DNA from: a virus
Length of the DNA stretch: 42,106 nt
Strand: one strand, 5' to 3'
IMG/VR virus record: IMGVR_UViG_3300031576_000131
Coordinates: 1 to 42,106 of that record
In this document: piece after piece, positions 1 to 42,106 of the stretch
Layout: every line of letters starts with the position of its first letter
Numbering within the stretch: the stretch's first letter is position 1
Made by a program: the position numbers and the translations under genes
The notes under the pieces: model-generated
Databases searched by the model: none
Seen by the model: the letters and a program-made list of their open reading frames with translations, nothing else
Told to the model about the DNA's origin: nothing

Positions 1-178
1 CGGCACCGGCACCGGAACCGCAACCGTCACCGCAACCGTCACCGAAACCGAAGCCGTAACCGTAACCGTCACCGGAACCGAAACCGTCACCGTAACCTTC
101 ACCGGAACCTTCACCGGAACCGCAACCGTAACCGAAACCGTAGCCGTAACCGTCACCGTCACCGAAACCGGAACCGGC
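1..178. repeat. Hexanucleotide coding repeat array, left end
   Basis: An almost uninterrupted array of 6-base units of the form ACCGNN on the plus strand (GGTNNC on minus). Bases 1-26 equal 41971-41996 and bases 27-124 equal 42009-42106 exactly. The right copy carries 12 extra bases (two units, 41997-42008). Bases 125-178 continue the array with units not present at the right edge. The array encodes the Gly-X part of the minus-strand gene at the genome junction. Because both window edges fall inside it, its true length is unknown. Confidence 0.95.
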
Positions 179-268
179 AAGCGCCCACAGGCCAGGCACT
201 CCGTACAACCCGCAACGATCAGCGCCAGCAATCGCCGCACCAGTCACCATGTCCCGCGTCAACTCCAT
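1..268 (-). CDS. Gly-X repeat protein, N-terminal part (runs off left edge)
   Basis: The ATG at 268 overlaps the stop of the upstream gene (stop 261-259), a coupling seen throughout this genome. The product begins MELTRDMVTGAAIAGADRCG, has a short hydrophobic stretch (LYGVPGLWALAG), then becomes a strict Gly-X dipeptide repeat with X = S, E, Y, D, F, C or A. The X codons are nearly all NNC. The frame is open to base 1 and, if the window is closed into a circle, continues in phase into 42106-41921, giving about 109 residues. A second minus frame (Val-X) is also open, but it lacks the coupled start and does not fit the unique sequence at both ends. Function unknown; such Gly-rich repeats are flexible or adhesive in other proteins, but nothing here proves that. 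Confidence 0.6.
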   Translation of the reverse strand, partial: MELTRDMVTGAAIAGADRCGLYGVPGLWALAGSGFGDGDGYGYGFGYGCGSGEGSGEGYGDGFGSGDGYGYGFGFGDGCGDGCGSGAGA

Positions 269-531
269 GGCCCGGCCTCAATCGCCGCCGCCGCTTCTTC
301 GCTGCACTCGGCCACGCTCGTTACGCCAACGATTGTAAGAGTTGGGACCGCCGCACTCACGCGGCTGCCAGGGGCCGGCCCGGTCGCCGCTAGCCCCAGG
401 AATCCGCGGGTCGCCTGCGACCAGTACAGAATGAGCCGCGCGCTCTTGAGCGTCATGGTCTCGCCGATCTCACCATCGGACTCGCCAAAGAACACACCGC
501 GATGCTTCGTCGTAACGAGTACCTTCTTCAT
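259..531 (-). CDS. Small conserved phage protein (DUF6948-like)
   Basis: 90 residues starting MKKVLVTTKHRGVFFGE, with an AAAGGTGA Shine-Dalgarno about 8 bases upstream of the ATG. The body (TLKSARLILYW, then TRGFLGLAATGP and GSRVSAAVP, ending in a V-T-S-V-x-E-C motif) resembles a small family of unknown function that I recall from many tailed phages as DUF6948. It is predicted to be a compact beta-rich protein with no membrane segment. It lies at the downstream end of the early operon and its stop overlaps the start of the Gly-X gene. Role unknown; the family name is from memory and should be confirmed by a profile search. Confidence 0.8.
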   Translation of the reverse strand: MKKVLVTTKHRGVFFGESDGEIGETMTLKSARLILYWSQATRGFLGLAATGPAPGSRVSAAVPTLTIVGVTSVAECSEEAAAAIEAGPWS

Positions 532-1290: not shown

Positions 1291-2820
1291 CTATTCTCCG
1301 TTGTTCGATCCGTTCGGCAACGACCGAACCGGCAGCGACCATATCCAACCCTGCGCCCCGCGAACTCCAGGAATGCGCGGCAATGGTACGCTGGCAATGC
1401 CAATGCGATCTTTCGCGCGCATCACGGTCGGCCACGTGAACCCCGCTGCCTCTGCCGACTCGCGCACGTCCTTCTGCGGCATAGACCCGCCGCGTAATGA
1501 GTTCAGCAGGAACTCGGCAGCCCGGTCCGTCAACGTTTCCTTGTGAGGAACGCGCGGCGGGGCGAAGTCGAACGTCACGCCAGAATCATCGTGTCGCATG
1601 CCCAGGTCGGTCGGCGGAGTGCTCAAGGTGCTTTTCAGCGAACGAATGCGCACGCGGCTGTCGTCTGGATCAGGAGTGTCCATTGCAATGATCGACCGCG
1701 CCCACTGCCGGATCGCACCGGCGCCGCGAATGTCGTCCTTCTCTAGGACTCCCTTGAGTGCGTCGGCCTGTCGCTTGCGCGGATGATGCGATATGAGCAT
1801 GGAAGTCTTTGTGTCTCTACCAAGCGAGGCAATGCGCTCAAGAAAAATTACATCCTGACTGCTGTTCTCGTTCCCGCTAAACAGACCCCGCAGAGCATCG
1901 AACATCACGATGGCCGGCCGGCGCAGGACAACCGTCCGTTCGAACGTCTCCCAGGTTGTCTTGTTGTCGAGCTTCACGTCCATCATCTTGTCGTCGCTTC
2001 TCGGATCTTTGAACCAGTACACTCGATCGAGCGGCACTCGGGTCGTTTTGAGTCGGTTCAGATTGACCGCGTGTGAACCTTCCGTATCGATGAACATGAC
2101 CTCGGGAGCAAGATTGTTCGGAATCGCAAACGGCTGCCCATCGGGCCACGGATACCCTTGCACTATCGTTTGAGCAAGTCGAATCAGGAACCGCGACTTG
2201 CCGATTCCGTCATCGCCGGCAAGCAGCGTGATCAGCCCGGCCGGGATCCATTTGTGCCAAAGCCACGTGACGTTTCCCAATTCTTCTTCGACATCTTGAA
2301 AAGTCACGATAGCACAGTCCTTTCCGGAACTGACTACGGCCATTTTTGCTTCAACGTCGCGCATCAATCTCCCGGCCTCGCGCATGAGCATTGCCGGATC
2401 GACATTGCCGGCGAGCGCATGAATAGACGCAGCGACTGTCGAAAGCTCGCGCGCTAGTGCCAGGCTCGCGACGATCCGGCCATGATGCTCTGCCAGCGAC
2501 GGCGATATGCACTTCTGTACGAGGTCGGCAAGGTAAGTCGAAGGAATGGACTCGGAGAGTCCTTGCTGGCGCATCCTTTGACTTACTGTGACGAGATCGC
2601 ACGGCTCTCCGTCCTCTAGAACATCGACAATCGCACCGAACACCGCGCGGTTCTGTTCGTTGTCGAAGTCCGTTATCGTCACGATCTTCTGAACGCTGCG
2701 CGCTTCGTGCACGTCCATGAGCATCGCGCCAAGGACCGCCGCTTCGGCTTCCGGTGACACCGGCCGCTGCTGTTTGATTTCATCGCCTAGCTGGACACGA
2801 ATCCGCCTTTTTTGTCTCAC
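1291..2820 (-). CDS. DnaB-N / RepA-like replicative ATPase (helicase)
   Basis: 509 residues from a GTG start. Residues about 20-130 resemble the DnaB helicase N-terminal domain (SPEAEAAVLGAMLMD, with the usual charged helices). From about 185 onward it is a RecA-fold ATPase of the RepA/AAA_25 type: Walker A GDDGIGKS at 202-209, VMFIDTEGS near 241, a Walker-B-like strand PAIVMFDAL at about 302-310 and SMLISHHPRKR near 340. A winged-helix-like tail (about 430-490) follows. It probably unwinds or loads helicase at the phage origin, using host polymerase because no phage polymerase is present. The start has only a weak GGGA upstream. The family is well supported; whether it is a helicase or a loader is inference. 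Confidence 0.88.
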   Translation of the reverse strand: MRQKRRIRVQLGDEIKQQRPVSPEAEAAVLGAMLMDVHEARSVQKIVTITDFDNEQNRAVFGAIVDVLEDGEPCDLVTVSQRMRQQGLSESIPSTYLADLVQKCISPSLAEHHGRIVASLALARELSTVAASIHALAGNVDPAMLMREAGRLMRDVEAKMAVVSSGKDCAIVTFQDVEEELGNVTWLWHKWIPAGLITLLAGDDGIGKSRFLIRLAQTIVQGYPWPDGQPFAIPNNLAPEVMFIDTEGSHAVNLNRLKTTRVPLDRVYWFKDPRSDDKMMDVKLDNKTTWETFERTVVLRRPAIVMFDALRGLFSGNENSSQDVIFLERIASLGRDTKTSMLISHHPRKRQADALKGVLEKDDIRGAGAIRQWARSIIAMDTPDPDDSRVRIRSLKSTLSTPPTDLGMRHDDSGVTFDFAPPRVPHKETLTDRAAEFLLNSLRGGSMPQKDVRESAEAAGFTWPTVMRAKDRIGIASVPLPRIPGVRGAQGWIWSLPVRSLPNGSNNGE

Positions 2821-2850
2821 GGCGCCATTCCCGAAACGCCGGACCAGATT

Positions 2851-3183
2851 TTATGTAGCACCCTCCGGACCGCCCTTCTTCTTCCCTGCGGATTTCCTCG
2901 GTCGAATGCCGTTCACGGCAAGTGCCGTGATGAATGCCAGCGCCTCCTGGTGTGTTGTGCCGTCCTCTCTACAAATGCCGTTGTTGAACAAGATCAAAGA
3001 ACGATCTTCGACGACGACCTGATGTAGACCCGTGATCTGCGCCCATTCCTTGTAGACCCTATTCGGATCTAGTTCTATGTCGTGCGCGCACTGCACTTGC
3101 GGCCACGTCGCCGCCATTTTCCGTAACACCGCGTTGTCTTGTAGCAGAATGAGTGCCGCGCTGTTCATGCTGACCCTTGACAT
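2851..3183 (-). CDS. Hypothetical protein, 110 aa
   Basis: The start at ATG 3183 is preceded by GGGGACGAAA, a good ribosome site, although it lies 125 bases inside the upstream nuclease gene. The product (starts MSRVSMNSAALILL) is predicted mixed alpha/beta, carries the stretch ELDPNRVYKEW and ends in a Lys/Gly-rich tail (PRKSAGKKKGG). I do not recognise the family. A shorter start at the internal ATG near 3115 would reduce the overlap. Its position between the nuclease and the helicase genes suggests a DNA-metabolism accessory role (inference only). Confidence 0.65.
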   Translation of the reverse strand: MSRVSMNSAALILLQDNAVLRKMAATWPQVQCAHDIELDPNRVYKEWAQITGLHQVVVEDRSLILFNNGICREDGTTHQEALAFITALAVNGIRPRKSAGKKKGGPEGAT

Positions 3184-3526
3184 TTTCGTCCCCCAACACG
3201 TGCCTGCACACCCACATGACAACATGGCCGCCGGCAAGCTGGCTTGGAGTAATGCGATAGACAGCCCAGCCGCGCACGCGCGCTTCGTTGTACTTCTCCA
3301 TATCCGCAACGTATCCGGCGCCGCGCGTGTGCCTTCCTCTGACGAATACGCCGCCCTCGACTTCGATTGCGATCCGTTCATCCGGCCATGCCCAGTCGAA
3401 CCGCCATCGGCGTGGTCGCGCGAACAGGTATTCAGCCTCGCCCAGTGCGATAGGACACCCGCGTGCATTGAGCACACGCTGAGCGAACAAGGCCTGCAAC
3501 GCAATTCGCGTTTTTACGCTGTCCAC
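3059..3526 (-). CDS. PD-(D/E)XK endonuclease (VRR-NUC / resolvase-like)
   Basis: 155 residues from GTG 3526, 18 bases after the upstream stop. The catalytic core is visible: FDWAWPDERIAIEVEGG at about 43-59 gives the Asp and Glu-x-Glu of a PD-(D/E)XK nuclease. H..RGAGYVADMEKYNEA then supplies His, Tyr, Asp and Lys, and GWAVYRITPSQL is the usual closing strand. Such small phage nucleases cut DNA junctions or ends next to RecT and exonuclease genes, which fits the neighbours here. The family core usually ends near residue 115, so the last 40 residues, which overlap the next gene by 125 bases, look like an unconserved extension. Confidence 0.85.
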   Translation of the reverse strand: MDSVKTRIALQALFAQRVLNARGCPIALGEAEYLFARPRRWRFDWAWPDERIAIEVEGGVFVRGRHTRGAGYVADMEKYNEARVRGWAVYRITPSQLAGGHVVMWVCRHVLGDENVKGQHEQRGTHSATRQRGVTENGGDVAASAVRARHRTRSE

Positions 3527-3544: not shown

Positions 3545-3979
3545 CTAGGGAACCATCACGGCCAGGTATGCGAACACCGCACACAACACAGCAAACACTA
3601 GTGCAACGTGTTTGTGAACGCGCGCTACTCGTATTCGGTCTGCCAGCGCCACAATGGTTCCGTCTGTTTCCAGCCAGTACGCCAAATGCAGAATACACAT
3701 GGCGCGATTCGTGTTGTGCGTCTCGCCACGATCGCTGTCAGGCCAAGGCGGCTTCTCTGCCATCGCATTGCATCCCGGCACGTTGCACCAGAGCGACCGG
3801 AGATCACCCGGACTGACTGTCGGCGGCGGCGAAGTTCCTTCTTTTGCCCACTTGCGTTCCAGAGTGTGCATGGAACACAGATCACTGCCAGGCGCAAGAT
3901 CGCAGCCGCAAATGGAGACACGCGGACACCCCTTCGTTTCAGATGTTACGCGTGCGCCCGGATCGACTCGACTACTCAC
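3545..3979 (-). CDS. Small Cys-rich protein with C-terminal membrane anchor
   Basis: 144 residues from GTG 3979, which overlaps the RecT stop by 8 bases and has a GGGGTGA ribosome site. The N-terminal half has clustered cysteines and histidines (CPRVSICGC, then C..H, then WCNVPGCNA) that could bind zinc. The C-terminus is a single hydrophobic segment (HVALVFAVLCAVFAYLAVMV), so the protein is probably a tail-anchored inner-membrane protein with a cytoplasmic zinc domain. I do not recognise a family. The RecT-nuclease context does not explain why it would be in a membrane. Confidence 0.7.
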   Translation of the reverse strand: MSSRVDPGARVTSETKGCPRVSICGCDLAPGSDLCSMHTLERKWAKEGTSPPPTVSPGDLRSLWCNVPGCNAMAEKPPWPDSDRGETHNTNRAMCILHLAYWLETDGTIVALADRIRVARVHKHVALVFAVLCAVFAYLAVMVP

Positions 3980-4829
3980 CCTGAATCACCCCGTCAGAAT
4001 CGACCACGAGGCCGCGATCCTGAAGGAGAATCAGCGTTTCCGGATCGAGGTTTTCAACGGCAGTCGGCGTCTGTCGTTCCGCCGCTTCGTCGATTGCGAC
4101 CAGCCGCGCGATCTCCGGTGACTTCGGCATGTACTTCCACATCGCACGAATGGCCGTCTTGCAGCACATTGCCGCGTAGTCGGTTTTCCACGGGCCGGAG
4201 TCTTTCGCGCGACTGCGCGAACGATGCGCCTCTAGCTGTGCGCGGCTGAGGACCTTGAACGTCGCCGCGCCATCCTTGTATCGAGCGATTGCGTACGCAT
4301 GCGTGAGCGGCCGCTGTTCGCGCTTGTCGTCCTCTGCCGGCCGGTGAACCAGCTTTGGCTTCAGGCCCGATTCGTATTCGAACACGTCGCCATCGCGCAC
4401 CACGTCGGCGTCGATGCTCGACAGTCTGCCCGAACGCATGGACAGTTCGATCATGCCTTGATAGCCGACGATCAGTTGACACTCGAATATGTCTTGCTTG
4501 GCCGCCTCGCTCAATCTCATGTTCTTGAACGGGATCAGGTACGCCTGCCCAAGCGGCGTATTGACTTCGAGGCCAAGCTGCGATGCCTGGATCACACTGC
4601 CGAGGAACGACATCGGCGTACAGTTCGCCAGCTTGTTCGTGGTTCGCAGAGCAGTCGCGAAAATGCGCGCCATGCGGTCGGCGTCGATGTGCTTCGGCAA
4701 CGCGCGCGCGATCTCGGGCCGAATGTCGAGCAGAAGATGTGACAGCGTGCGCGTCACCTCGCTCTTCAAGGCACCTTCCGCCGCTGTGCGCGGCACAATC
4801 TCGCCTTGTTTCGTGACGTTCGTACTCAT
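3972..4829 (-). CDS. recT: RecT-family ssDNA annealing protein
   Basis: 285 residues, close to the usual RecT length. The diagnostic core is present: ALRTTNKLANCTPMSFLGSV, then ASQLGLEVNTPLGQAYLIPF near 80-105, CQLIVGYQGMIELSMRSG near 117-134 and a conserved W-T-x-Y-x-M region (GPWKTDYAAMCCKTAIR). RecT proteins bind the 3' single strands made by a partner exonuclease and anneal them to a complementary strand. The partner gene lies immediately upstream with a 4-base overlap (4826-4829), the standard exonuclease-annealase pair of phage recombination. The ATG at 4829 is chosen on family length. Confidence 0.95.
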   Translation of the reverse strand: MSTNVTKQGEIVPRTAAEGALKSEVTRTLSHLLLDIRPEIARALPKHIDADRMARIFATALRTTNKLANCTPMSFLGSVIQASQLGLEVNTPLGQAYLIPFKNMRLSEAAKQDIFECQLIVGYQGMIELSMRSGRLSSIDADVVRDGDVFEYESGLKPKLVHRPAEDDKREQRPLTHAYAIARYKDGAATFKVLSRAQLEAHRSRSRAKDSGPWKTDYAAMCCKTAIRAMWKYMPKSPEIARLVAIDEAAERQTPTAVENLDPETLILLQDRGLVVDSDGVIQGE

Positions 4830-5737
4830 TTCGCCCTCCGGTCTTTCGGTTCATAGTAGCGCAACGGCCGTTCCGTGTGCGCACGGACAACGTACTCGGG
4901 CTTCACAAACGACTTGGCGGTGATGTACGCACCGCTCGGCAGCAGCACGCGTTCGTGCGGGCCGACGATTGCCAACACCTGATCGTAAAGCGTTTCCCTT
5001 GATTCGTGCGCCTCCTTTTCGACCCTAGCCCACCTGCGCCAGTTCGCAATGATGTCGATATGCGCAGCGTCTTTGATCATGGCGACGCTGCCGTCTGATT
5101 CCGGCCAGAGAAGTTTCGATACACGGCGAGACAGATCAGTCACGTCGAACTGTGGCGGCTCGCGGTCCTGCACATGCTGCCAAAACCTCGAACCGGCAGA
5201 CGCGATTTCGGTGCACAGGTTTTCGTTGCGCTCGATGCGCTGCCACACCATCTTCTGTCCGCCGATCAGACACACGGCATATCCATAGTTGCTGCCAAGA
5301 CACATCATTTCCTGATGTACCTGTGCAACTACCCGCATCGGCGCGCCGTCCTGCCACTCCCCGTCGTTGAACACGCCGGTAGTTTTTACCTGAATCGGCA
5401 CCTTCATTGCTCCGTCATGTGCAACGTGATCCGGCGTTGCAAACAAGAACCGGAACTCGGCATGCCGAACGATGTAGCCGAACTTCTCTGTTCTGAGTTC
5501 CAGCCGCCGACCGAACTCTTCGGCGATTGCATCTTCTAGCAGCAGGCCCCACGATGCAGCCTCGGACATTTCTTCGGCGGCGTTTTCGTACACCTTCGAC
5601 AGATACAACTCGATAGGCGAACTGTAACCAGAGAGTCCGAGTAGTATCGGAATCTCGCTGGCACCGATTCCCTTTCGGCGCTCTGCCAGCCAGACGTTTC
5701 GATCGCTGGCGAAGATTTTAGGCTCAGTCGTTCTCAA
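4826..5737 (-). CDS. YqaJ / lambda-exonuclease-like 5'-3' exonuclease
   Basis: 303 residues from TTG 5737, preceded by GGAGG and overlapping the upstream stop as TTGA. Landmarks in order: RKGIGASEIPILLG at about 21-34 (substrate loop), LLLEDA with Glu near 69, TPDHV with Asp at 103, PIQVKTT with Lys at 118, and QVHQEMMCLG near 139. The family degrades one strand of dsDNA to feed the RecT partner encoded directly downstream. One oddity is that the E-x-K motif reads Q-V-K here, so the usual acidic residue at 116 is Gln. Whether that affects metal binding is open. The C-terminal 80 residues are predicted helical. Confidence 0.9.
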   Translation of the reverse strand: MRTTEPKIFASDRNVWLAERRKGIGASEIPILLGLSGYSSPIELYLSKVYENAAEEMSEAASWGLLLEDAIAEEFGRRLELRTEKFGYIVRHAEFRFLFATPDHVAHDGAMKVPIQVKTTGVFNDGEWQDGAPMRVVAQVHQEMMCLGSNYGYAVCLIGGQKMVWQRIERNENLCTEIASAGSRFWQHVQDREPPQFDVTDLSRRVSKLLWPESDGSVAMIKDAAHIDIIANWRRWARVEKEAHESRETLYDQVLAIVGPHERVLLPSGAYITAKSFVKPEYVVRAHTERPLRYYEPKDRRAK

Positions 5738-29732: not shown

Positions 29733-31958
29733 TCATGCCTCCACGGCGGCAACTTCGTCGAATGCTGTAAGCACTCGACGTTCCATTTCTTGCGTGTGCA
29801 ACTTGAACAAGAGACGCATACTCTGTTCGAACACTTCGAGCGTATTGATTGCTCTGAACCAGGCCGCCTCTGCCTTGGTATCCGATACGGCGCGCTCACC
29901 GTCGTCGCTTTCAGTGTTCGCAACCCACACACACCGACAGTTGATTATGTCCTCGGGACCTGCTCCGAGAGTTGCATCGCCCGGAAACATATAGTGCGCG
30001 CCGGTATCGGGATCAGCGAACGAATCGTCCATGCGCACGATCTGTCCTTCAAGCGCCGCGTGGCCGTCACGAACGCGGTCATCGCGCGCGGTCGTCCACT
30101 GCTTGAACGGTATTTCGTTCTGCTTCGCGGCGAGCCAGCCCGCTGCCTCGTGCGCCTCGTGGGTTTCGGTCCGTGCAATGCGATCTAGCTGCCAGTCCTC
30201 GCGCCGTTCCTCGAATGCCTTCTGCAAGTTGTCGCGCATTTGCACAATGCCCTTGCCGGTCGCAACGCCTTCGCCAAGAACGGCGCGCAGCTTTTCAACG
30301 GTCGTCTCCGTCCAATGGCCGGCCAAATTGATCGACTGGCGCTCTATGTAGAGAAGCACTGTCGGATCTGTGACGCGGAACGATGCTGAGGCTATGCCAG
30401 CAATGTCCAGCAGTTCCTCGCCGGCGACCCGATACATTTCTCGCAGCAGTCTGCGGACGCGCGCCGCGAGACGTGCCGTTTCCGCTTTGTCGTCGAGAAT
30501 CTTGTCGAGAAGCGAACGCTTGCCCGTGAGAAGGCGCAGTTTGCGCTCTGCTTGCTGGTCTTGGATCTGTTCTGAATCCTGGTCTTGGATCTGTTCTGAA
30601 TCATCGTCCTCTTGGTCGCCTTGCTGCAGCAGTTTTGCTGCTACTCCGGCGAGCGGGTCCTCGCCCAGCTTCCTGCCGTTGTAGTAAAGCTGATCCGCAA
30701 CCTTGTCGGCCCATGCTTCGAGGCCGGCGCGCTTGCGCGCTTCGTTCGGAGACAACCATCCGAACTGCACGCCCTTTGTATTGAAGTCCGCAATTTCGTT
30801 GGCGCTCTGCTGAAGCGCGCGCACTTGGTCGAAATTGAACTTGAGGCGCAGCTTTTCGTTCGGCCAGAATCGCTTGAGGTATATCGAGTTCCACCATTCC
30901 TCTAGCATGCGCGCCCAGGACCGAACGGTGTCTTCCCAATACGACCGCTCCTGCGTTTCGCTGTTCGCGCGGAATGCGTCACTGTAGTCCGATAGCTTGA
31001 CGGGTGGCACGCCATAGAGCATTGCAATCTCGCTGCGCGTGAACTTCAGTGATGCCAGGAACGCCAGTTCCTTGTCGCTCGGCCTCGGAAGCAGCGTGAT
31101 ATCGAACTCGCCCTTGGTGAACACCATCGGTTTGCCGGCGTTGTGTGCGCCGGCGAATCGCTGCTGTACCTTGCGCGCGAACTTCTCGATCTCGTCTTCG
31201 TCTGCCCACTGGCGAGTTGTTTCAATCACCATGTCGGTCGGAATGCCCTGCTTGAAACGGTTGTACTGAAACCCGTGCATCTCTTGTTCGAGCAGCAACG
31301 CGTGGCGCAGCCGGCCGATCGGCGGCAAGCCCCGGAACGGCGAATTGAGATTCGCTGTCCGCGTGTGCATGATTTCTTCGGGAAGGAACGGGAAGGAGTT
31401 GTACTGCATGTCTCGATACAGGTATCCACGAATCATCTTGACTGGATCAGGTACGACCACGACGCGCTGCGGTTGCATTCGAAGAACATTGAACGGGACG
31501 CCGTTTTCAATGTCGAAGAAGCTGATCGCCTCTCCGCACGTGAACATATCACCGATCCAGTGCTGGAAAAACAGTGCCGGCGTCCATGTCGGATTGATGT
31601 GCCGCCACAGTTCGATCGCTGCGTGGTCCTCGATCTTCACGGGCTTCTGTGGGTTTCGCCAGTCGAATAGATCAATCGAGAGGCTGGCAAGATCATTGCC
31701 GACTACGTCGATACATCGCCCAACCGCTGCGGCGACCTCTGTAATGTCGATGAGCGGCTGCTGATCAGGAACTGGTTGCGTGCTCGGCGCGAGAGCGCCC
31801 ATGAACTGCGCGTTGTCGGAATCGATCTTGGATGGCGAAGTGCTGCGCCAGTAGCTGCGCGCAACTTTGCCGACAACAATGCGGGCGAGTGCAGAGTCCG
31901 TGCTACTCCGCACTTCGCCCGCAGGCGCAATCGCGTTTTCAACCGGAGGATTGCTCAC
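29733..31958 (-). CDS. Portal protein fused to Mu gpF-like head morphogenesis domain
   Basis: About 741 residues from GTG 31958; an earlier GTG at 32018 is less likely because it reads through the promoter-like region. Portal part (about 50-440): ITEVAAAVGRCIDVVGNDLA, FFQHWIGDMFTCGEAISFF, VPPVKLSDYSDAFRANSETQ and FGWLSPNEARKRAG are typical HK97-type portal motifs. A Gln/Asp linker with a doubled eight-residue motif (DSEQIQDQ) follows. The C-terminal half carries IARTETHEAHEAAG, the Trp-x-T-x-x-D-x-R-V-R-D-x-H pattern and INCRCVWV, the signature of Mu gpF-like minor head proteins. The fusion supplies the DNA entry pore and an internal head protein from one gene. Confidence 0.93.
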   Translation of the reverse strand: MSNPPVENAIAPAGEVRSSTDSALARIVVGKVARSYWRSTSPSKIDSDNAQFMGALAPSTQPVPDQQPLIDITEVAAAVGRCIDVVGNDLASLSIDLFDWRNPQKPVKIEDHAAIELWRHINPTWTPALFFQHWIGDMFTCGEAISFFDIENGVPFNVLRMQPQRVVVVPDPVKMIRGYLYRDMQYNSFPFLPEEIMHTRTANLNSPFRGLPPIGRLRHALLLEQEMHGFQYNRFKQGIPTDMVIETTRQWADEDEIEKFARKVQQRFAGAHNAGKPMVFTKGEFDITLLPRPSDKELAFLASLKFTRSEIAMLYGVPPVKLSDYSDAFRANSETQERSYWEDTVRSWARMLEEWWNSIYLKRFWPNEKLRLKFNFDQVRALQQSANEIADFNTKGVQFGWLSPNEARKRAGLEAWADKVADQLYYNGRKLGEDPLAGVAAKLLQQGDQEDDDSEQIQDQDSEQIQDQQAERKLRLLTGKRSLLDKILDDKAETARLAARVRRLLREMYRVAGEELLDIAGIASASFRVTDPTVLLYIERQSINLAGHWTETTVEKLRAVLGEGVATGKGIVQMRDNLQKAFEERREDWQLDRIARTETHEAHEAAGWLAAKQNEIPFKQWTTARDDRVRDGHAALEGQIVRMDDSFADPDTGAHYMFPGDATLGAGPEDIINCRCVWVANTESDDGERAVSDTKAEAAWFRAINTLEVFEQSMRLLFKLHTQEMERRVLTAFDEVAAVEA
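30556..30603. repeat. 24-bp tandem duplication in the portal linker
   Basis: A 24-base unit (30556-30579) is repeated at 30580-30603, differing at most at the boundary base. It encodes DSEQIQDQ twice in the linker between the portal and gpF-like domains. Being in frame, its copy number can change without breaking the gene. Confidence 0.9.
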
Positions 31959-39328: not shown

Positions 39329-39795
39329 TCTGCATTTCTCCCATCGAGCCACGGACACGCTGCGAAAAGTCCGGCATGCCCATCCGGAATGCTGGCCGCG
39401 AACGGGTGTTCGATTGTGATGGGCGGAAGTCGGAACCCATACAGCACGAACTTCTTCGACGCGGACTCTCGTTGCCGCCGAGGCAGCCTCGACGGCAGGA
39501 GAGATTTCTTGACGAGTCGCGCAGCCACTCTGCTTTCGCGTCGCGCGTCCAGATGTTTTCGGCAGTATCCGCTACTCCTTGCTGGCGCCGAACAGTATCG
39601 GCACTCGCCGCGCGCCACCTTTCGGCGGCGACACGTAGCCACGCTCTCGCGTTGCGCGTCCAGATGTTTTTGGCAGCATCCGCTACACACTGCGCTTGCC
39701 GAACAGTATCGGCACTCGCCACGCGCCACCCTTTCACGGCGCTGTGCAGCAAATCGTCGATTCCGTTCTTCGCGGGTAATTGCTGCACACATCAC
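39325..39795 (-). CDS. Protein with two tandem zinc-finger modules, 156 aa
   Basis: GTG 39795 overlaps the upstream stop; an ATG one codon in is equivalent. Two copies of a 37-residue module start with ARGECRYCSA and continue to a Cys-x-K/R-H-L-D-A segment, each with a potential C-x-x-C...C-x-x-x-H zinc site. The second half (about 95-156) is Arg/Ser-rich and then globular (FVLYGFRLPPITIEHPFAAS). The repeat is also visible in the DNA (87% identical by eye over 77 bases), so the duplication is fairly recent. Nucleic-acid binding is likely; no enzyme motif. Confidence 0.75.
   Translation of the reverse strand: MMCAAITREERNRRFAAQRRERVARGECRYCSASAVCSGCCQKHLDAQRESVATCRRRKVARGECRYCSAPARSSGYCRKHLDARRESRVAARLVKKSLLPSRLPRRQRESASKKFVLYGFRLPPITIEHPFAASIPDGHAGLFAACPWLDGRNAE
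39543..39730. repeat. 77-bp direct duplication within the zinc-finger gene
   Basis: 39543-39619 and 39654-39730 align with about ten mismatches and no gap. Period 111 bases equals 37 codons, the module length of the encoded protein. Confidence 0.85.
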
Positions 39796-41920: not shown

Positions 41921-42106
41921 TTAGAAACCCCCCGCACTCCCGAGCGCCGTTGCGATAGAAGCACCGGGACCGGCACCGGCACCGGAACCGCAACCGCAAC
42001 CGTAACCGTCACCGCAACCGTCACCGAAACCGAAGCCGTAACCGTAACCGTCACCGGAACCGAAACCGTCACCGTAACCTTCACCGGAACCTTCACCGGA
42101 ACCGCA
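41921..42106 (-). CDS. Gly-X repeat protein, C-terminal part (enters from right edge)
   Basis: Open from base 42106 without a start. The strict Gly-X repeat (42106-41966) ends in AGPGASIATALGSAGGF and the TAA at 41923-41921. Read after the left-edge piece (268-125), the frame is continuous, giving about 109 residues for the joined gene. This end copy carries 12 extra bases (four codons, Gly-Tyr-Gly-Cys) relative to the left edge. The conserved, non-repeat N- and C-termini show that this is one gene with a variable middle rather than noise at contig ends. Confidence 0.6.
   Translation of the reverse strand, partial: CGSGEGSGEGYGDGFGSGDGYGYGFGFGDGCGDGYGCGCGSGAGAGPGASIATALGSAGGF
41962..42106. 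repeat. Hexanucleotide coding repeat array, right end
   Basis: Same ACCGNN array as at 1-178. 42009-42106 equals 27-124 base for base, and 41971-41996 equals 1-26. 41997-42008 is a two-unit insertion. The match strongly suggests that the window ends are one locus seen twice. Confidence 0.95.

Follow-up and report, generated by a model that had tools for sequence, protein, structure and literature searches.

DUF6948 and an overlapping Gly-X hexamer-repeat gene form a conserved two-gene module in phages

A DUF6948 gene and, directly behind it, a gene whose hexamer array encodes glycine at every second residue (Gly-X) constitute a conserved and widespread two-gene phage module with near-obligatory linkage. 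Among 80 viral loci kept after selection on the DUF6948 sequence alone, an array of 7 to 98 units lay directly downstream in 78 (criterion: at least 7 units directly downstream), compared to 2 of 75 upstream of the gene and 1 of 56 at 1.5-2.2 kb downstream when the identical array test was applied there. As for the two exceptions, one contig stops 19 bases past DUF6948 and one is truly without an array. The module was recognized in the window, by which we mean the whole 42,106-nucleotide viral stretch analysed here (IMG/VR record IMGVR_UViG_3300031576_000131).

Both ends of the window fall within the module. Positions 1-26 match the sequence from 41971 onward and positions 27-124 match 42009-42106; the right-end copy (41971-42106, 136 bases) therefore exceeds the 124 bases of the left end by 12 bases, which are two hexamers inserted in frame. 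No exact terminal repeat of at least 20 bases was found at the window ends. On the minus strand, the Gly-X frame opens with the ATG at 268 and crosses the left end; once the circle is closed, it re-enters at the right end and stops at 41921. The protein read across this junction has 105 aa with the left copy or 109 aa with the right copy (pI 4.05 for the latter), and its N- and C-termini are unique. The initial annotation had likewise placed both ends in a single Gly-X gene differing by two units and had proposed one coherent protein upon circle closure, and the comparison bears this out. Tandem Repeats Finder scored the array at 204 (5-176) and 162 (41962-42091). Counted over the window, the array comprises 33 units of the form GGT-NNC, in which the third base of the Gly codon is T in 31 of 33 and that of the X codon is C in 30 of 33. 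Glycine stays constant and X is free (S, F, D, Y, C, E, A or P), with nearly all X codons being NNC as had been noted before. The true array may be longer than assembled, as the initial annotation had also suggested.

Table 1. Coordinates of the module and of neighbouring genes in the window.
Feature	Position	Strand	Basis
Gly-X gene, 5' part, with the ATG (268-266) and most of the array; resumes at the right end on the circle	1..268	-	frame and end comparison
Gly-X hexamer array, left copy, unit GGT-NNC on the minus strand	5..176	-	Tandem Repeats Finder, unit statistics
DUF6948 gene, stop (261-259) overlapped by the Gly-X gene (ATG 268-266); predicted Sm-like fold	259..531	-	PF22253, AlphaFold
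RecT annealing protein, context, 3.4 kb upstream of DUF6948, same strand	3972..4829	-	PF03837, 2.3e-43
YqaJ-like viral recombinase/exonuclease, context	4826..5737	-	PF09588, 2.7e-17
Gly-X gene, 3' part: array end, C-terminus GPGASIATALGSAGGF, stop	41921..42106	-	frame and end comparison
Gly-X hexamer array, right copy, longer by two units within the shared part	41961..42104	-	Tandem Repeats Finder, end comparison

With the window DUF6948 as query, three viral relatives were found; behind each of them lies a Gly-X array that has a unit consensus of its own. An alignment of these DUF6948 sequences led to further viral loci and to four bacterial genomes (Aequorivita, Sphingobium, Novosphingobium and Sphingomonas) with arrays downstream; the contig of one locus (L008) stops before any array could show. 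The subsequent scan, which samples the array-associated subfamily from whose members its alignment was built, returned at least 575 confirmed DUF6948 relatives, including the 80 kept for the array test. Vice versa, when at least 120 viral stretches were selected by the DNA pattern of the repeat alone, an iterated profile placed DUF6948 upstream on the same strand in 83 of 120. The other 37 consist of 22 with less than 400 bp of upstream sequence, 10 one-residue repeats and 5 mixed arrays that are candidates for real absence, two of which give a weak DUF6948 match below the main threshold. The two sets overlap in at least 3 of the 80 loci (L139, L162, L169). DUF6948 also occurs without a Gly-X array (L197 and L159; L160 has just 6 units), and the first two loci are natural tests of DUF6948 acting alone.

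The initial annotation had suggested looking for Gly-X genes beside DUF6948 in other phages, and such pairs were seen in cultured phages of Pectobacterium, Rheinheimera, Iodobacter, Vibrio and Chlorobiaceae as well as in bacterial genomes. An HMM consensus of DUF6948 searched against isolate phages gave 131 phage records; the single DUF6948 sequences of the window and of L010 gave no match there. The Gly-X protein as a direct query gave no match among phages and viral contigs, since its low-complexity array is likely to be masked and its N-terminus is short. Within the 16 isolate loci examined first, 14 have an array of some kind (degenerate in MW202898, 8 units in MT836871); of the remaining ones MT835900 has 6 units and MW202478 no array. 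At about 2761-3300 of MW202898, the degenerate array contains frameshifted Gly-X stretches and is perhaps a decaying copy. In the Iodobacter phage phiPLPE, the Gly-X gene behind DUF6948 (about 1190-1460) is unannotated in the record. Three plasmid-collection records carry DUF6948, with an array following in both of the two examined. One Neisseria gonorrhoeae record (NZ_CP119142.1, 530930-536175), entered as a plasmid of 2.17 Mb, contains DUF6948 at three places; behind the one examined lies an Asn-rich Gly-X array where no gene is listed.

The two genes are tightly packed. Of 170 distinct pairs, 146 have the Gly-X start codon overlapping or ahead of the end of the DUF6948 stop, and in 77 it is an ATG at -10. 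Relative to DUF6948, the array frame is -1 in 132 pairs, +1 in 29 and 0 in 9. One of the 170, on a metagenome contig (L035), is a natural fusion with DUF6948 in frame with a 43-unit array, behind which a second, duplicated array stands free. The Gly-X proteins themselves are modular and occur as a short leader plus array, as an N-terminal domain that we labelled 'GAC' in this analysis plus array, or as an array plus one of several C-terminal domains, for which Pfam searches returned no named family. One such unnamed domain, again without a Pfam match, is joined to arrays in Monoglobus pectinilyticus (Bacillota; L251) and in L160, L161, L025 and L109. Its motif is about IDGxxTIxxxVRxNxAKGxILxxDLTLxPCYIxKxxxxFAHGxTL, and it occurs in the Bacillota record as well as in fecal and other phages.

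Array length and unit order change between close relatives. In eight Pectobacterium/Dickeya phages the Gly-X protein has 85, 73, 73, 67, 89, 83, 53 and 73 residues, whole hexamers apart. The Pectobacterium phages Abuela and Amona show 0 differences in 1,527 upstream and 1,500 downstream bases (3,027), and their arrays are three units apart and also differ in order; Abuela and Ymer agree in both flanks and array. In the contigs L086 and L136, flanks identical at 800/800 and about 799/800 positions enclose arrays of 22 and 49 units. Among the 60 of 115 Barba records listed, the span measured 1,070 or 1,076 bases except in two records of a second species, where it was 1,100 and 1,112 bases. In four records examined the difference lay in the Gly-X gene, which had 210, 216, 240 and 252 bp; neither the adjoining DUF6948 nor three other small genes changed in length. 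Abuela/Amona, L086/L136 and Barba1A/15S thus differ in unit number between identical or near-identical flanks, as a VNTR coding gene does. Unit copying has also left a visible mark in phage Sabo, where the wobble variant GGTTCC recurs five times among other units. The phages of the study that describes Ymer and Abuela were read with a 300-cycle NextSeq kit, and metaSPAdes was used for assembly (PMC11445585), so that array length deserves long-read confirmation.

The Gly-X gene had initially been described as phase-variable or length-variable. Of these, length change by gain and loss of units is directly seen in the relatives, but on/off phase variation is not supported: all length differences measured among the Pectobacterium/Dickeya and among the Barba Gly-X genes are multiples of six and keep the frame. 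Unit changes that shift the frame or promoter spacing, as in a phase-variable contingency gene, were not seen in the Pectobacterium and Barba phages. Bacterial contingency repeats likewise gain and lose tandem units, and thereby switch genes on and off, whereas the six-base Gly-X units keep the frame and vary length and order.

For the window alone, the two-unit difference between the ends may instead be an assembler error in the repeat rather than variation in the population. Contigs do often break in Gly-X arrays: a contig end cuts 10 of the arrays in the 80-locus set, where about 1.7 would be expected. The opposite end was compared for seven contigs, of which five belong to these ten, L004 came from an earlier scan and one was covered at both ends; this opposite end also lay in an array in four (L200, L215, L224, L092/L126) and outside any array in three (L004, L216, L230). 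The window is hence a typical case, and the array explains one recurrent break place in many phage assemblies. However, the indel is clean, comprises two units and is flanked by 98 and 26 exact bases, and cultured isolates differ by the same kind of indel. We regard an assembly artefact as less likely than not.

Three features had escaped the initial annotation, namely the changing order and identity of X, the homogeneous wobble bases and the Sm-like predicted fold of DUF6948. For the 73 DUF6948-selected arrays with at least 12 units (5 of 78 were left out as shorter), the mean entropy at hexamer positions 1 to 6 was 0, 0, 0.26, 0.94, 1.10 and 0.28 bits, positions 1-2 being GG by construction. 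Positions 4 and 5 together exceeded the wobble positions 3 and 6 in 72 of 73 arrays, and in 27 of 27 in an earlier set. Composition was taken from DUF6948-selected sets only, because the repeat pattern favours Tyr, Ser, Asp and Ala units. Of 2,724 X residues, 37% were Ser, 28% Tyr and 20% Asp (together about 85%); Ala accounted for 23 and Lys and Arg together for 6. Serine codons were TCN in 1,003 of 1,011 cases. Eight third-base patterns, with hexamers including GGC-NNC, GGC-NNT, GGG-NNC and GGT-NNC, encode one common X composition.

The window DUF6948 matched PF22253 (6.4e-22, 77.9 bits at a cut-off of 27) with residues 1-84 on profile positions 1-85, as did 66 of 70 aligned relatives. Pfam gives no function for this family, and a PHROGs search returned weak matches only, to phrog_18306, a family of unknown function. 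An AlphaFold model of the window protein, based on 70 aligned sequences, reached a pLDDT of 94.4. All of the best 50 Foldseek rows against the PDB were Sm/LSm, Sm-like or snRNP/spliceosome entries (E 0.008 to 0.035). VIA-align likewise gave Sm/LSm-type structures throughout its best 50 rows, headed by the metagenomic Sm-like protein 3by7 (Z 7.1, 3.0 Å, 72 residues). The DUF6948 part of the L035 fusion, although only about 23% identical to the window protein, yielded Sm/LSm structures in all best 50 VIA rows (best Z 6.5); both models stay below a Z of 8, which according to VIA possibly reflects just a common arrangement. Sequence profiles were less supportive: at E<=1 none of 70 DUF6948 members matched the general LSM family, one of the 70 gave a weak LSM12_LSM match (0.0019), and an hmmsearch of PDB sequences with DUF6948 returned no Sm chain. 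Because the Sm1/Sm2 sequence profiles do not support membership, we call DUF6948 a small protein Sm-like in its predicted fold, not an LSm family member. The array in the L035 model is predicted to be disordered, with pLDDT values of 38-60 by blocks of ten. A match of the window Gly-X protein to TrAA12 (PF22807; 22.1 bits) did not reach the cut-off of 30.9. This candidate was rejected, since the L005, P0001 and L010 proteins, which pass the cut-off, match about 60-95 of 463 profile positions and mainly over the Gly-rich array, pointing to a composition effect.

These observations can be joined into one reading, which we favour but put at somewhat less than an even chance. The window would be a circular or circularly permuted phage genome whose assembly broke inside the hexamer-repeat gene of the module. 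The first gene, DUF6948, would encode a small Sm-like protein, and the second, whose start usually overlaps the end of the first, an acidic and largely disordered (Gly-X)n protein in which X is mainly Ser, Tyr or Asp. The latter would serve the Sm-like core as a low-complexity tail supplied in trans, and core and tail together may handle phage RNA or single-stranded DNA in early replication and recombination. Slippage or recombination among nearly identical hexamers would rapidly alter the length and the X order of the array, with selection retaining Gly at every second residue and the Ser/Tyr/Asp mix, so that length and sticker pattern would be tuned or diversified. Linkage, overlap, variation in length and order and the codon pattern are observed directly, the Sm-like fold and the disorder are predictions, and nucleic-acid binding, ring formation, a physical partnership and a joint role of the pair are inferred.

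Eukaryotic SmD1, SmD3 and LSm4 combine an Sm core with a Gly-rich low-complexity tail of the basic Gly-Arg type in cis, and such Gly-rich tails of Sm/LSm proteins promote assembly. The module is similar in having an Sm-like core and a Gly-X-type tail, whereas the phage tail is acidic and aromatic and would be provided in trans. In Hfq, a fast-diverging disordered tail extends from an Sm-like core, and its acidic tip residues can mimic nucleic acid and regulate the core (PMC6561178). The predicted folds of two distant DUF6948 proteins resemble Hfq and 3by7; in contrast to Sm/LSm proteins and Hfq, DUF6948 has no sequence-profile match and its model has a helix between strands 3 and 4, and unlike in Hfq the part resembling a tail is encoded by an overlapping gene of its own, in a strict hexamer array. 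Most DUF6948 proteins carry a net positive charge (50 of 70; median pI 8.4), and this together with the acidic array and the Hfq precedent led us to propose a core with a tail in trans. The window DUF6948 itself, however, has a net charge of 0 and a pI of 6.6, unlike its family, which counts against the scheme.

RadC and an SNF2 helicase accompany RecT and the YqaJ recombinase upstream on the same strand in the window, with a DnaB-like helicase between. Among 50 records, 15 carried RecT (9) or ERF (6), located within 5 kb of the pair in 12 of 15 circularly and in 10 of 15 linearly, with 4.0 expected. This proximity, like the natural fusion, favours the core-and-tail reading; that just 15 of 50 records carry either gene, and that one fusion was seen among 170 pairs, counts against it. 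Of the terminase searches, one gave a single remote match and another none.

Alternatively, the Gly-X protein might be a self-assembling, silk-like or condensate scaffold serving to organise phage replication or to block a host process, with DUF6948 as its assembly or dosage partner. The strict Gly alternation, the richness in Tyr and the near-lack of Lys and Arg would suit this, as would the predicted disorder of the array and the extra N- or C-terminal domains placed as modules on many arrays. Silk fibroin-like (Gly-X)n proteins share the Gly alternation, whereas X in the phage protein is Ser, Tyr or Asp and hardly Ala, and the protein is short, acidic and from a bacterial virus. As a scaffold leaves the near-obligatory presence of DUF6948 and its Sm-like predicted fold unexplained, we consider it rather unlikely. 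Another alternative is an arms race, in which the array would serve as a decoy or interaction surface towards host defence or a rival phage and diverse X orders would be favoured because they allow escape. Arrays indeed differ between phages with identical flanks, X is diverse where wobble bases are not, and recombination genes lie nearby. However, Barba isolates from one host hardly vary (one 6-base step in 60 of 115 records, the two second-species records aside), and residue composition is alike across unrelated phages, as expected for a biophysical rather than an epitope role. This makes a decoy an unlikely explanation.

We also asked how far the array could be a near-neutral hexamer microsatellite that persists as the frame never breaks. 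Unit turnover is fast, and several alternative frames stay open through the window array. However, a neutral simulation of slippage or unit copying plus mutation, run with arbitrary mutation and slippage rates, gave wobble and X positions of about the same entropy, and an X:wobble ratio above 3 arose in 0 to 20% of simulated arrays compared to 20 of 24 real ones. Together with the bias to TCN among serine codons, the near-absence of basic residues and the DUF6948 linkage, this renders a neutral origin very improbable. That X is mixed while wobble bases are uniform suggests that fast copying and loss of units homogenise the wobble positions and that selection at the protein level keeps X mixed; the array thus seems to evolve by unit copying plus protein-level selection. 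A role of the repeat as DNA (origin, recombination or packaging signal) would account for genome ends and contig breaks inside it, but we give it hardly any credence, as hexamers differ between arrays while the encoded residues stay constant and the array frame is tied to the overlapping start codon.

Returning to the Sm-like core with a tail in trans, the module is present in hundreds of viral contigs, cultured phages and bacterial genomes, and we found no description of it. The term DUF6948 was absent from the literature searched, as was a description of its Sm-like fold and Gly-X partner, and searches for the DUF6948/Gly-X pair gave none either, with most subscription journals outside their coverage. 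If the Sm-like reading is true, it would link phage biology to Sm/LSm ribonucleoproteins and provide a natural library of arrays that vary in unit length and sticker pattern between identical flanks, so that the function of a low-complexity sequence would become unusually directly testable. A more far-reaching version is speculative, and we doubt it more than we believe it: phages of several bacterial phyla would possess an undescribed system in which an Sm-like nucleic-acid-binding core and a hypervariable (Gly-Ser/Tyr/Asp)n protein, encoded separately by the overlapping gene as its low-complexity tail, form tunable RNP or ssDNA condensates in early infection, with array length and sticker order as a fast evolutionary dial.

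Two further duplications were seen in the window. The sole Tandem Repeats Finder score above those of the array (317) belongs to a 111-base direct duplication at 39532-39735 with 86% match, which lies in a 156-aa minus-strand ORF without a Pfam match and forms two Cys/His-rich zinc-finger-like repeats. The other, at 30555-30602, is an exact 24-base tandem duplication within a portal/Mu-F gene and encodes the repeated peptide DQDSEQIQ.
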